Origin: Pseudomonadota bacterium
GTDB lineage: Bacteria > Desulfobacterota > Binatia > UBA12015
Assembly (NCBI GenBank): GCA_005777805.1
Contig: SXLG01000039.1
Span: forward strand, 1 to 33,524
Reading direction: 5' to 3'
DNA: 33,524 nucleotides
The notes under the pieces were generated by a model, which searched no databases, was not told where the DNA came from, and saw only the letters and a program-made list of their open reading frames with translations. A program made the position numbers and the translations under genes. Shown in pieces: positions 6,803-12,096 of the stretch (its first letter is position 1; every line of letters starts with the position of its first letter).

Positions 6803-7423
6803 GGAGCGGGGGATGTAGCCCTTGCTCTCGAGGTACTCGATGCAGGCGGCGGCGCATTCGTCGACGGACTTCTCGGCGGTGCGCAGGGTGAGCTCGGCCT
6901 TGTCGGGTGCCTCGTAGGGTGCCGAGATGCCCGTGAACTCGGGGATCTCGCCGGCGCGGGCCTTCTTGTAGAGGCCCTTTACGTCGCGCTTCTCGCACTC
7001 CTCGACCGGGCAGTCGATGTGGACCTCGATGAAGTCGCCCGCCTGCATGATCTTGCGGACGTTGTCGCGGTCGGCCCGGTAGGGCGAGATGAAGGCCGTC
7101 AGATTGACACTGCCGGCCTCGGTGAAGAGCTTGGCGACCTCGCCGATACGGCGGATGTTCTCGGTGCGGTCGGCGGGAGAGAAGCCGAGGTTGCTGTTGA
7201 GCCCATGGCGGATGTTGTCGCCATCGAGGATGAAGGCAGAGACACCGCGTTCCCAGAGGACCTTCTCCAGCGCCACGGCCACGGTGGATTTGCCAGAGCC
7301 CGAGAGCCCCGTGAACCAGAGGGTGCAACCCTTGTGCCCCAGGATCTTCTCGCGATCCTCACGGGTGACGTTGCCCTGGTGCCAGACGATGTTGGTTGCC
7401 TTGCGCGTCGCGTCGCTGCTCAT
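6800..7423 (-). CDS. cysC: Adenylylsulfate (APS) kinase
   Basis: A 207-residue APS kinase, which phosphorylates adenosine 5'-phosphosulfate to PAPS for sulfation or sulfate reduction. The P-loop GLSGSGKS is at residues 39-46. Other family blocks are [10 protein letters not shown] (substrate binding), [13 protein letters not shown] and [12 protein letters not shown], and the lid region with [17 protein letters not shown]. Length is normal for a stand-alone CysC. No cysD or cysN is adjacent, so the APS supply is encoded elsewhere. The TAA stop coincides with the first bases of repeat element copy A; the protein end ([11 protein letters not shown]) looks natural, so the element has not truncated it. 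There is no Shine-Dalgarno before ATG 7423, and a promoter candidate lies so close that the message may be leaderless. Confidence 0.96.
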
Positions 7424-7431
7424 GGCGGGGT

Positions 7432-7460
7432 CGGATACTGATCGGTCCCGCCGTCTTCAA
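7432..7460 (-). promoter_or_regulatory. Candidate sigma-70-type promoter of cysC, near-leaderless
   Basis: On the minus strand TTGAAG (7460-7455) and TATCCG (7437-7432) are separated by exactly 17 bases. The ATG of cysC begins eight bases after the -10 box, so transcription would start within a base or two of the start codon. The absence of a Shine-Dalgarno sequence agrees with a leaderless message. The -10 match is modest. Confidence 0.35.
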
Positions 7461-7686
7461 CCGCGCATCCCGCAACCTTGGGATGGCGCAGAGATGCGCT
7501 TGCCCGTGATGGCCCCGTCGTGGTGGTGTGAAGGGCGAACCACCCGCCTGACATGGCGAGATCTGGCCGAGGCTTGCGTGCCGAGAGGTCAGGAGACCGA
7601 GCTGCCCGATCATGCCCTTCCTCCGGAAGAAGTCGCTGCAACCCTGGCCTTGGTGGCGTGGAGCACACGGCCGAAGGCGTCGCGCC

Positions 7687-8172
7687 ATGCCTCTGCTCCG
7701 GATAAAATCGTTGCTTTTTCTCGCGCCGGTCTTGCTTGCGGCGTCCGGCGGGGAGGCCCGTGCTGGCTCTCCTGTCGAGATCGGCGCGATCGATATCCCG
7801 GGTGCGGGCCGGCCGATCGCGCTGGCGCGGGCGGGGAGCTGCGTGGCGGTAGGCCGGCGGGGCAGTCCGGATCTCTGGTTGGTCGAGACAAGCGACCCCA
7901 CCGCGCCACAGATTCTGGGATCGATCGAGATTGGTGGCACTCTTCGGGCGCTCGCGGGTCGCGATCGCTGGGTCTACGCGATTGGAACCATCAGCGGGAT
8001 GGCGCGGCTGCACGTCGTCGACGCGTTGGGCCGAGTCGAGGTGGCTGCTGTCGAGTTGGGGCGGCTGGCGCCGCCGCTTGCGCTGCAGACGGAGACGTCG
8101 AGTCGGTTGCGGGTCACCGGCCGGGGGCGCGGGGCGTACGTCACGCTCGTGCTGGATGTCGCCGACCCCTAG
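7687..8172 (+). pseudogene. N-terminal part of an exported LVIVD-like/SGNH-hydrolase gene, ended by an in-frame TAG
   Basis: The reading begins at ATG 7687 with a signal peptide (basic MPLLRIK, hydrophobic LLFLAPVLLAAS, then a GGEARA cleavage region). It continues with beta-propeller-like LVIVD-type text such as LWLVETSDPTAPQILGS and LVLDVADP, until TAG at 8170-8172. The same frame resumes directly after the TAG with HPSIVES and runs without a further stop to 8946 through a complete SGNH hydrolase. In LVIVD repeats the motif is D-x-x-D-P-x-x-P, so the TAG replaces one residue inside the motif (DVADP-stop-HP); a CAG-to-TAG change would explain it. An ATG at 7612 in the same frame would add 25 residues ahead of the signal peptide and is less likely. 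Either a recent nonsense mutation, a sequencing error or readthrough. Confidence 0.6.
8170..8172 (+). other. In-frame amber codon interrupting the LVIVD-SGNH gene
   Basis: TAG follows GACCCC and precedes CATCCG; the frame on both sides belongs to one continuous protein. No other stop occurs between 7687 and 8943. The next start-like codon in frame is GTG at 8236, without a clear ribosome site. Confidence 0.75.
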
Positions 8173-8235
8173 CATCCGTCGATCGTTGAATCTATTGCCG
8201 ATCGCGCGCCGCACTCGCCGCCGCGCGCGCAGGCC

Positions 8236-8946
8236 GTGCCCGACTACGAGCCCGGAGCCTCGATCCTTGCGGCCGCCTGGGAGACCCGTGGTGGATCGCG
8301 CTTCTGGGACGTCATCGTCCTCGATCCCCGTCGCGAGCTGCGTCTGGTCGAGCGCAAGGTGGCAGGCTTCGCCGACATCAATGGCGACGGTATCTTCCGG
8401 CTTGCGTGCCTCGGCGATTCCAACACGCTGGACCGGCCGCCGTGGGCGCAGGCGCCGGGATGGTGGGCTCTCCTGGCCGCCCGCATCGACGATCCTTTCT
8501 TCGAGCGGATCGAGATCGCGGAGATTGGCGCCACGGTGACCCGGCAGCTCTTCCCGGAGTTGGCCCGACGCGAGGCACGCTACCATCTTCTGTCGGCCTT
8601 CCGCTACGCGCCCGACATCGTGGTGATGGCCTACGGAACGAACGATGTTCTCCAGTGGCGCGGCGCCGAGGCCATCGTCGCGGCCTATCTCGAACACGAG
8701 GCCACGACTCTCTCGGCCGGGGTCACCCAGTTCGCGGTCTCGACCACGCCTCGCATCGGCGAGGGCGACGACATCACCATCATCGCGTCGAATACGTTGC
8801 TGCGCGAGGTCTTCGCCGGACGCTTCTTCGAGTCCTTCGATGGCTACACCCTCGAGGAGCACTTCCGCGTGGACGGCTACCACCTCAACGCCTTGGGCCA
8901 GCGCAAGCGGGCGGAGGCGGCTCTGGCACTTTTCGGCCCGCGCTAG
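8236..8946 (+). CDS. SGNH/GDSL-type hydrolase domain (C-terminal half of the interrupted gene)
   Basis: From GTG 8236 this is 236 residues with a complete SGNH esterase/lipase fold. Block I is CLGDSNT with catalytic S62; block III is AYGTNDV, supplying the oxyanion Asn; block V is DGYHLN, supplying D213 and H216. A DINGDGIF segment just before block I resembles a calcium-binding loop. These hydrolases act on acyl or acetyl esters of polysaccharides, lipids or peptidoglycan; the substrate is not evident. Without the upstream part this half has no signal peptide. If it is made only by internal initiation it would stay in the cytoplasm; if the TAG is read through, the full protein would be exported. 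All catalytic residues are kept, which argues that the interruption is recent or suppressed. Confidence 0.8.
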   Translation: MPDYEPGASILAAAWETRGGSRFWDVIVLDPRRELRLVERKVAGFADINGDGIFRLACLGDSNTLDRPPWAQAPGWWALLAARIDDPFFERIEIAEIGATVTRQLFPELARREARYHLLSAFRYAPDIVVMAYGTNDVLQWRGAEAIVAAYLEHEATTLSAGVTQFAVSTTPRIGEGDDITIIASNTLLREVFAGRFFESFDGYTLEEHFRVDGYHLNALGQRKRAEAALALFGPR

Positions 8947-9009
8947 CGGGGCGCGAGCCGTGACGTCGGATCGCTCTGCTCGTGGTACGAGACGCCGCGG
9001 CGGTTCTTG

Positions 9010-11199
9010 ATGAGCGGATGGCGGGAGCGGCTGGGATGGTGGTGCGCTGAGGCGGATGCGCGAAGGCGATTCGCCCCATTCTTCGTCGCGCTCGTGCTGA
9101 CGGCGTTCTGGACGGGGCGGTGGTGGTCGCGACTGGCCGACAGCCTGCCCGATCCCTCGTCGTGGGGTGGGCCCGCCGAGGCGGCCGATGCCCGTCTCGC
9201 CGTCTGGACCATGGCCTGGCAGGCCCACGCGCTGATTTCGCCGGCGGCCTCGTTCTACGACGCAAATATCCTCCATCCCGCGCGTGGCATGTTGACGGGC
9301 TCGGACACGTTCTTCACGCCCGCCCTGCTCGCGGCTCCGTTGAACGGGCTCTTCGGCAACGCTCTCCTCGCCGCTAATATCGTGCTTGTAATCGGTTACG
9401 GGCTGGCCGTCCTCCTCGGAATCTGGGTGGCGCGTGCGGTGGGGCGGGGCTTTGCCGGCAGCGTGATCTTCGGCGGCGCAGTCGCGCTCGGGCCGCTCGC
9501 CGTACCGGCGAGCGCGCATGTGCTCCAGTATCCGAGCTGGGTCCTGCTGCTGGTGCTGCTGGCCGTCGCGCGGGCTGGACGGGCGGGGACGGTTCGTGCG
9601 TGGGCGGCAGCGGCCTGTGCCGTTGCGCTGGGGCTGCTGACGTCGATGTACATGGCCGCCATGACCTTGGTCGTCGTGGCGGTGGAAGCGCTCGTCGTGG
9701 CGCCCGGCGGCCGGGCGAAACGGGCTCTCGGTCTCGCTGGCGCGGTCGTGCCCGGCGGCCTTCTGCTCGCCGGCGCAGCGTTGCCCTGGCTGCGGCGCAG
9801 CGGTGATCTTCAGGGTTCCCCTGCCGTGCTGCGCGAGGGGCTCGGAGTCATCGCCGACACGCTCCTCCCGTCCTACCTGGATCCGACAAACAGCCAGTTC
9901 GGAGTCGGCTGGATCGTCGCGGGTCTCGGTCTGCTCGGGCTGATCGAGCCGCTGCTCCGCCGGGAGAGGCCGTCGCGGGACTGGTGGAGGTGGACGCTCT
10001 TGCTCGGCGCGGGTGTGATCCTGGCCCTTGGGCCACGGGTGGTCGTCGGCGGCGTTCGTATTCCGCTGCCGTATAGCCTCATCGTCGAGACTCCCGCGGT
10101 GGCCCTGCGCGGCTTTTATCGCTTCTTCATCGTCGGACATCTGGGGTTGGCCGGTCTGGCGGCGCGTGGTTGCGATTCTTTGCTCTCCATTGGCCGGGCG
10201 TGGTTCGGGGCGCGGGCGTCCGCGCTGCTTGCCGCGGGGCTGATCGTGGCGGCCTTGCTGCCGCGCTCCGAGCTGCTGCGCTCCACCGAGCTGCGCACCC
10301 TGCCGACCGATCCCGAGCTCGACGCGATTCACCGCCGCCTCGCTGCGAGTGCCGATCCAGGTGCGGTTCTCGAGATACCGGGCCCGGGAGATGCCCTCAC
10401 TCTCGGCCGCATGGCGCTGCAAGCAGATTACATGCTCTACAGCACGCGACACTGGCGCCCACTGATCAACGGGTTTACGGGCTATCCGCCGTGGTGGTGG
10501 TCGTGGCTGCGCCGCGAGATCGCGGGCCTGCCCGGCGACGCCACGGCCTGGGGGGCGGTAGTCGATGCGACGGCGGTCCGCTGGATCGTGGTTCACCGCA
10601 CTCATCTGTCGGCGCACGAGTGGCAGAGCTGGCAAGAGGCGGCCGCTCGCCTGCCAGGCGTCGAACGCGTGGCGGGCGGCAAGCAACATCTACTGCTGCG
10701 CGTGGACAGGATGCCGCAGCGGTCATGGCTCGAGCGACTGCGAGAGGGCAGATTCGGCCCGGAGGAAACGATCCTCGGCACGCGCCGGGCGCCGCTGGAA
10801 CCTGCCGACACGCGGGGACGGCTCACGCTGCGCGGTCCGGTCCCACCGGTCGAGCCGGGGCGTGCCTTCGTTCTCCGCTTGACCCTGCGCAACGCCGGAG
10901 GAGTGGCGTGGCCAGCACTGGCACCCCGGGATGATCCGGGAGAGGGGCTCGTCGTGATCGAGAGCCGCTGGCACGCCGCTGTCGGCGGAGCGCAGGTGCC
11001 GCCCGCGACCGCACGCCTCCTGCGCGACGTCTTCCCCGGCGAAGTCCAGACAGAATCCATCACGCTGGTCGGGCCACCCGGGCCGGGGACGTACGACCTC
11101 GAGCTCTCGCTGCATCAGGTCGGTGTCGGGCCCTTGCGGTCGGTGCCACCGCTCTCGCTTCGCGTCGAGAATCGCGCCGTCGATCGCAAACCCTCGTGA
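9010..11199 (+). CDS. Large polytopic membrane protein, GT-C glycosyltransferase-like, with C-terminal beta-sandwich
   Basis: A 729-residue protein. The N-terminal ~420 residues hold many hydrophobic spans; the first periplasmic loop carries DARLAVWTMAWQAHALI and DANILHPARG. This arrangement is typical of bacterial GT-C-fold membrane proteins that use polyprenyl-linked sugars, although the exact family is not recognised. Residues about 430-570 form a soluble region (PGAVLEIPGPGD, HWRPLINGFTGYPPWWW) like the periplasmic part of such proteins. The last ~110 residues look like an Ig-like beta-sandwich (LRLTLRNAGGVAWPAL, RDVFPGEVQTESI, PGTYDLELSLHQVGVG), of the type attached to glycosyltransferases and Wzt-like transporters. 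ATG 9010 was chosen over TTG 9007. It may build or modify a cell-surface glycan; no substrate can be assigned. Confidence 0.7.
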   Translation: MSGWRERLGWWCAEADARRRFAPFFVALVLTAFWTGRWWSRLADSLPDPSSWGGPAEAADARLAVWTMAWQAHALISPAASFYDANILHPARGMLTGSDTFFTPALLAAPLNGLFGNALLAANIVLVIGYGLAVLLGIWVARAVGRGFAGSVIFGGAVALGPLAVPASAHVLQYPSWVLLLVLLAVARAGRAGTVRAWAAAACAVALGLLTSMYMAAMTLVVVAVEALVVAPGGRAKRALGLAGAVVPGGLLLAGAALPWLRRSGDLQGSPAVLREGLGVIADTLLPSYLDPTNSQFGVGWIVAGLGLLGLIEPLLRRERPSRDWWRWTLLLGAGVILALGPRVVVGGVRIPLPYSLIVETPAVALRGFYRFFIVGHLGLAGLAARGCDSLLSIGRAWFGARASALLAAGLIVAALLPRSELLRSTELRTLPTDPELDAIHRRLAASADPGAVLEIPGPGDALTLGRMALQADYMLYSTRHWRPLINGFTGYPPWWWSWLRREIAGLPGDATAWGAVVDATAVRWIVVHRTHLSAHEWQSWQEAAARLPGVERVAGGKQHLLLRVDRMPQRSWLERLREGRFGPEETILGTRRAPLEPADTRGRLTLRGPVPPVEPGRAFVLRLTLRNAGGVAWPALAPRDDPGEGLVVIESRWHAAVGGAQVPPATARLLRDVFPGEVQTESITLVGPPGPGTYDLELSLHQVGVGPLRSVPPLSLRVENRAVDRKPS

Positions 11200-11390
11200 T
11201 TGGCGCCGCGCCGTAGTCCCGAGGGTGGCTTGGGCTCGGCGTGGCCACCTTCCCATTCCGACCTGAGTTTGCACATGTACCGGGCATCGCTCGAGGCCTC
11301 ATGCTCTCGCTCCTCCTGGCACCGCTGTAGGGTCAAGCCGAGGGGATGTGTCGGCAGCTGCCGTGGACCGATCGTCCCGACCTGCCGGGA

Positions 11391-11774
11391 CAGTCGGGTG
11401 ATCCTCGGTACGCCATCGAAATCGGCGTCGGAGCTCAAGATGGTTCCAATTCGGTGTCGCCGCATCAGCGCAACCTGGATGGCGTCGCGCGCGGAGAGGC
11501 GCGTCGACCCGAGCGTGATCCCCCTGGCCGCGTCGAGATCCGCTGCGTCGAGAGCCAGCACCTCGTCGACGATCCCCAGGACCGCGTCGGCCGCAGGCTG
11601 GATCCTGTCCCTGCGCTGGATTGCGGTGTAACGATGGCGGATCTCGTGGAGCACCTCGACGTCGGTCACGAGCCGATCGCGCTGGACCATGCGATGCGCG
11701 TCGATCTTGTGGGGATGGACGCACCCATGAGGTACATCGGCCGACACCTCGGTGCTTACCGATGTGGAGATCGT
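11391..11774 (-). pseudogene. vapC: Decayed VapC-type PIN-domain toxin
   Basis: On the minus strand the frame reads HPHKIDAHRMVQ, RLVTDVEVLHEIRHRY, LGIVDEVLALDAADLDAARG, LSARDAIQVALMRRHRIGTI and SSDADFDGVPRITRL, the ordered blocks of a VapC PIN ribonuclease. Three acidic PIN positions are kept (E of EVLHEI, D of SARD, D of SSDADFD). The N-terminus is broken. MYLMGA can be read only in a shifted frame at about 11724-11741, with a base apparently missing before HPHK and extra bases before MYLMGA, and the first catalytic Asp is gone (VSTEV where VDTEV is expected). A few residues also appear deleted after MVQ, and no stop follows the natural end at PRITRL. It is therefore almost certainly inactive. 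No VapB is left beside it. Confidence 0.7.
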
Positions 11775-11784
11775 TGATGACCAC
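11751..11784 (+). pseudogene. higB: C-terminal stub of a HigB/RelE-type toxin directly before higA
   Basis: The bases read GAY, then one extra C, then DVEIVDDH. HigB toxins usually end in a sequence like GDAYDVEIVDYH immediately before higA. Only this tail is left, and the stub meets the broken vapC head-on at its left edge. Identification rests on a short motif plus its exact position. Confidence 0.5.
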
Positions 11785-11799
11785 GGGGAGAGGCAGGAG

Positions 11800-12096
11800 A
11801 TGGCAAATAACGGAATGCGTCCCATTCGCCCCGGTGAGATTCTGCGCAAGGAGTCCCTGGCACCACTCGGGATGAGCGCCCACGCGCTCGCCAAGGCGTT
11901 GCGAGTTGCGCCACCGCGTATCAACGACATCGCACGCGAGCGTCGCGGAATCACGGCCGACACCGCGATGCGACTCGCCCGGTACTTTGGCGTCGACGCG
12001 AGGTCGTGGCTCAATCTCCAGACCGCCTACGATCTTCGTGTGGCGGAACGAAGGAATGCAAAGCGCGTCGAGCGCGAGGTGACTCCGGCCGGGTGA
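11800..12096 (+). CDS. higA: HigA-family antitoxin (XRE helix-turn-helix), orphan
   Basis: A 98-residue HigA/VapI-type antitoxin. It has the family start MRPIRPGEILRKESLAPLG and an XRE helix-turn-helix (SAHALAKALRVAPPRINDIA, then RRGITADTAMRLARYFG), ending with SWLNLQTAYDLRVAERR. HigA neutralises the HigB mRNA interferase and represses its own promoter. ATG 11800 was chosen from the family start and the GGGGAG at 11785-11790; the open frame continues upstream to GTG 11752 only because the higB stub is in the same frame. The partner toxin survives only as a stub, so this is an orphan antitoxin. It might still act as a DNA-binding regulator or protect against related toxins. Confidence 0.88.
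   Translation: MANNGMRPIRPGEILRKESLAPLGMSAHALAKALRVAPPRINDIARERRGITADTAMRLARYFGVDARSWLNLQTAYDLRVAERRNAKRVEREVTPAG

Follow-up and report, generated by a model that had tools for sequence, protein, structure and literature searches.

In the window, a stretch of 33,524 nucleotides, the gene for a predicted exported SGNH hydrolase is interrupted by an isolated in-frame TAG codon, and we give an even chance to the reading that this stop is a real and recent loss-of-function allele. Translation demonstrated that positions 7687 to 8946 of the forward strand form a single frame of 420 codons, the sole interruption of which is the TAG at 8170–8172 (codon 162). Both the coordinates and the frame proposed in an earlier sequence-only reading were thereby confirmed, as was its statement that the GDSN, GTND and DGYH motifs are intact past the stop, since all three were found downstream as described. 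The gene was dissected into the following features, with the basis of each assignment in brackets:

7687..8946, forward strand: the interrupted gene, with a signal peptide, a beta-propeller-like region and an SGNH hydrolase domain (translation, homologues, Pfam, structure model)
7687..7764, forward strand: signal peptide, a hydrophobic stretch up to ARA (translation, called by eye; the model confidence is low at residues 1–25)
7774..8358, forward strand: all-beta, propeller-like region, residues 30–224 (strands of the model; weak matches to WD-repeat chains)
8170..8172, forward strand: in-frame TAG at codon 162, where the beta region passes from one strand to the next (translation, homologues, structure model)
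8407..8904, forward strand: SGNH/GDSL hydrolase domain, residues 241–406 (PF13472, TesA-like fold, invariant residues in alignment A2)
8944..8946, forward strand: natural terminator, likewise TAG (homologues stop close by)

Two near-duplicate stretches of 28 bases (7612–7639 and 7687–7714; 21 of 28 bases identical, 75 bases apart) each contain an in-frame ATG start, so that the true start of the gene is uncertain. Downstream, and in the same frame, lies a gene for a membrane-type protein of 730 amino acids (9007–11199) without a Pfam or NCBIfam match, and the distance between the two genes amounts to the terminal TAG plus 20 open codons (8944–9012). Further along, a PIN-domain ORF on the reverse strand (11299–12014) overlaps a helix-turn-helix ORF on the forward strand (11752–12096); both may be small genes whose starts were misjudged.

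Homologues of the interrupted gene were sought in 58 genomes, consisting of the window's own genome and 57 relatives. A match was obtained in 18 of them, and it was full-length in seven relatives. An alignment query, which returned 20 loci and in which the seven that cover the TAG column were aligned, added two more full-length homologues (OFTM280 and UWMA-0330), the remaining full-length rows being contigs that had already been counted, as their identical lengths indicate; L087, which duplicates the G009 contig, was excluded from the count. The best homologue, in G003, matched residues 12–417 across the TAG with 38% identity (E 1e-56). The orthologue comparison called for by the sequence-only reading thus yielded single frames that are open through the TAG column in all nine other genomes, and in none of them is the gene split into two. 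Together with the match across the stop, this shows that the observation exceeds chance. It had also been anticipated that one residue is expected at the site of the TAG, and this was indeed the case, but which residue it is differs among the homologues (A, M, A, H, G, A, K, A, A). The nine homologues terminate close to the position of the window's second TAG, with TGA in eight cases and with TAG in that of G013. All homologue records are MAGs, labelled Deltaproteobacteria, Myxococcales or just 'bacterium'. A single-sequence scan of genome contigs gave no match. When a conserved neighbourhood was looked for, just two of the 11 window proteins, the SGNH protein and a nitroreductase, had matches in the supplied loci of seven relatives.

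The read-through protein matched PF13472 over residues 241–406 with 33.8 bits, against a curated cut-off of 32.9, and all seven members of alignment A1 matched at E≤0.5. Residues S245, G281, N319 and H399 were invariant in the ten sequences of alignment A2; we take the SGNH blocks to be block I (GDSN), block II (Gly), block III (GTND) and block V (DxxH). A structure model built from ten aligned sequences (mean pLDDT 83.3) consisted of an all-beta part, residues 30–224, followed by an alpha/beta domain. In Foldseek searches with this model, the alpha/beta domain resembled E. coli TesA and carbohydrate esterases, while the all-beta region gave weaker matches to WD-repeat proteins, which suggests that residues 30–224 form a propeller. 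The label 'LVIVD' that had been attached to this region was weakly backed: PF08309 did not match the window protein at E≤1, but it did match two of the seven family members at E≤0.5. The protein shares the GDSN, Gly, GTND and DxxH blocks and the fold with known SGNH/GDSL hydrolases (PF13472; TesA; the carbohydrate esterase PbeAcXE, 7toh); it differs from them in that the domain is fused behind a propeller-like region and in that this genome alone carries the stop. No description of such a pair of domains stood out among the papers listed by a literature search. The gene product is predicted to be an exported two-part protein, in which a beta-propeller-like region precedes an SGNH esterase or acyl-hydrolase domain that probably acts on an extracellular or surface ester.

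The age of the lesion was approached from the columns that are invariant in eight relatives, with L009 and L087 removed as near-copies of L008. Upstream of the TAG the window protein retained 4 of 6 such residues, and downstream of it 19 of 22. In the control, where relatives were left out singly, 0 to 6 of 28 to 34 invariant columns were missed. The retention of 19 of 22 residues downstream implies that the stop is recent and, with the catalytic residues also in place, an old pseudogene is unlikely. The gene's own branch, with a length of 1.62, is the second longest among the nine, so that some relaxation of constraint is possible. On the reading as a real allele, a single substitution would have created the stop at codon 162, translation would halt there to leave an exported fragment of 161 residues that lacks the catalytic domain, and the gene in this genome would be a recent loss-of-function allele. 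That living cells carry the stop and that its product is inactive are both points that we infer.

Other genes with single in-frame TAGs, for which the sequence-only reading had advised a search, do occur in this genome. A coding-potential scan of 77 stretches (1,210,737 bases) yielded 47 candidates, and the same scan yielded 14 candidates in 289,757 bases of G003 and 10 in 221,769 bases of G001. The candidates were sorted by eye and unblinded, and most proved to be gene borders; at the thresholds used, the scan missed position 8170 itself. Seven of the 47 candidates were interruptions, whereas none was seen among the 24 control candidates from G003 and G001. TAG interrupts the genes for a haloalkane dehalogenase, a winged-helix/ATPase regulator, an alpha/beta hydrolase, a CoA-transferase and GcvT; an aldo-keto reductase gene is interrupted by TAA and a fragment of a quinoprotein dehydrogenase gene by TGA. 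Screening 624 kb of the own genome and the G003 sample with tblastn produced 26 rows with stops in two directions, nearly all of them shadow frames, and the one that was retained is a TAG in a gene named by eye as a MoxR-like ATPase, 23 bases off a contig end. With the stop at 8170 included, nine interrupted genes were thus counted in 1.21 Mb of the own genome, seven with TAG and one each with TAA and TGA. Seven of these loci (L059:15877, L065:7938, L067 on the reverse strand near a contig end, L069:8448, L139:3861, L151:3480 and L155:92) hold five TAG, one TGA and one TAA, and two of them lie less than 100 bases from a contig end. At L178:1992, on contig 95, gcvT is followed in the same frame by an apparent gcvH; its lone in-frame TAG is odd for a core gene.

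The residues that occupy the interrupted sites in solved relatives are Lys or Ala, Gln or others, Tyr, Tyr, Lys, Tyr or Gln, and Trp; the gcvT site is Tyr in all three solved relatives shown, and the MoxR-like site is Tyr in G003. As these residues differ, no single amino acid fits. Tyr can be taken as the residue expected at 4 of 8 conserved stop sites (p 0.009 with uniform mutation, 0.0008 with transitions weighted four times), an excess that was noted post hoc and was not built upon, one of the four sites being Tyr or Gln in solved relatives. Within family matches of the own genome, stops were present in 1 of 41 SDR, 2 of 19 alpha/beta hydrolase, 0 of 44 ABC, 0 of 29 AMP-binding and 0 of 13 CBS matches, and the TGA in the SDR match was rejected as an interruption because it is the natural end of the gene. 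In a hydrolase search across 15 genomes, at least one TAG was present outside the own genome (G017) among the matches listed.

Conceivably, a suppressor tRNA could read UAG partly as an amino acid and so produce some full-length enzyme. Seven of the nine in-frame stops found are TAG and the genes look intact past the stop, which would accord with this idea; the genome is 70% complete, and the tRNA may sit in the missing part. In addition, PMC8318568 describes decoding of UAG as pyrrolysine in some Deltaproteobacteria. An in-frame TAG in a MAG with relatives labelled Deltaproteobacteria is what our case has in common with the pyrrolysine genes of marine Deltaproteobacteria as covered there; it differs from them in that the gene encodes no methylamine methyltransferase, in that neither a CTA tRNA nor PylS was found, and in that the residue at the site is unconserved. 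The search for a suppressor tRNA came back empty, with no CTA anticodon among the 24 tRNA genes found in the 70% complete genome, and RF1 is encoded in this genome. The only PylS profile match within the assembled 70% scored 21 bits where the cut-off is 178, and matches below or over the cut-off were also present in 13 of 14 control genomes. TAG closes 126 of the 615 long ORFs whose ends were sampled in 1.21 Mb of the own genome (TGA 469, TAA 20), compared to 33 of 137 in G003 and 29 of 113 in G001, and it also terminates the SGNH gene itself; TAG is a normal terminator here and is not depleted. Random substitution in the interrupted genes predicts 53–57% TAG, so that 7 of 9 (p 0.12–0.18) is not above chance, and the residues expected vary between sites. 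RNA folding downstream of the stop was unremarkable as well (z = +1.0). Partial decoding by a suppressor tRNA is therefore improbable, and a shade more so is the version in which a low-efficiency amber suppressor tRNA encoded in the unassembled 30% would let scattered UAGs be tolerated in accessory and core genes (gcvT) at the price of reduced esterase. Recoding at the level of the genome was likewise set aside, as the data do not require it; the stop-type counts cover a third of the genome. Reversible, phase-type switching of the exported enzyme is the least probable of all: apart from the export of the encoded protein nothing speaks for it, no tandem repeat was detected within 7000–9500 and no pair of inverted repeats flanks position 8170. 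To our knowledge, there is no mechanism that rapidly reverses a stop made by substitution. Nor is it at all likely that the locus comprises two genes, one for an exported N-terminal protein and one for an SGNH hydrolase on its own, with a new start at GTG 8236 or GTG 8359. Relatives do have SGNH-only homologues (e.g. L007 and L010), but in all nine genomes with a full-length homologue the gene is a single frame, no ribosome-binding site was seen by eye upstream of either GTG, and the restart product would have no signal peptide.

Of the four options that the sequence-only reading had listed, switching and amber readthrough were accordingly left unsupported, and those still standing are a fresh nonsense mutation and a sequencing error. 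If the TAG were an assembly consensus error or a minority-strain base, the gene would be intact in the living population, and about 3e-4 unselected substitutions per base would be enough; we regard this as a serious possibility that falls short of an even chance. It is favoured by the isolated in-frame stops in core-type genes of the same assembly (gcvT, the MoxR-like ATPase) and by the closeness of 2 of the 9 interruptions to a contig end (at most 100 bases; p 0.003), which point to errors for at least some of them. In addition, two relatives showed no interruption over 512 kb, against an expectation of 3.5 (P 0.03, counted by eye). On the other hand, position 8170 is 8 kb off the contig end, and frameshift-like candidates were no commoner in this genome (11 in 1.21 Mb) than in the relatives (4 in 0.29 Mb and 1 in 0.22 Mb). 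Besides their stops, the genes for the dehalogenase and the regulator have additional frameshifts, which indicate that real decay occurs in this genome, and the quinoprotein gene is a fragment. A real allele is also consistent with nine open homologues out of nine, the variable column, the retention of the catalytic and most invariant residues, the presence of RF1, the normal use of TAG as terminator and the long own branch. Because the gene is an accessory one with one lesion, far from a contig end, we judge a real recent allele to be somewhat likelier than an assembly error.

The stop at codon 162 is an ordinary isolated nonsense lesion or an assembly error, and no new mechanism is needed to explain it. 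It shares a single in-frame stop, an intact remainder and unbroken homologues with ordinary nonsense pseudogenes and null alleles; the difference is that it is predicted from an assembly sequence, for which a consensus error is the less favoured alternative. Given that several isolated in-frame stops occur in this draft genome, a single stop there should not be taken as recoding without reads. If the allele is real, it would document that an uncultured deltaproteobacterium has recently lost one exported esterase, which is of minor importance.
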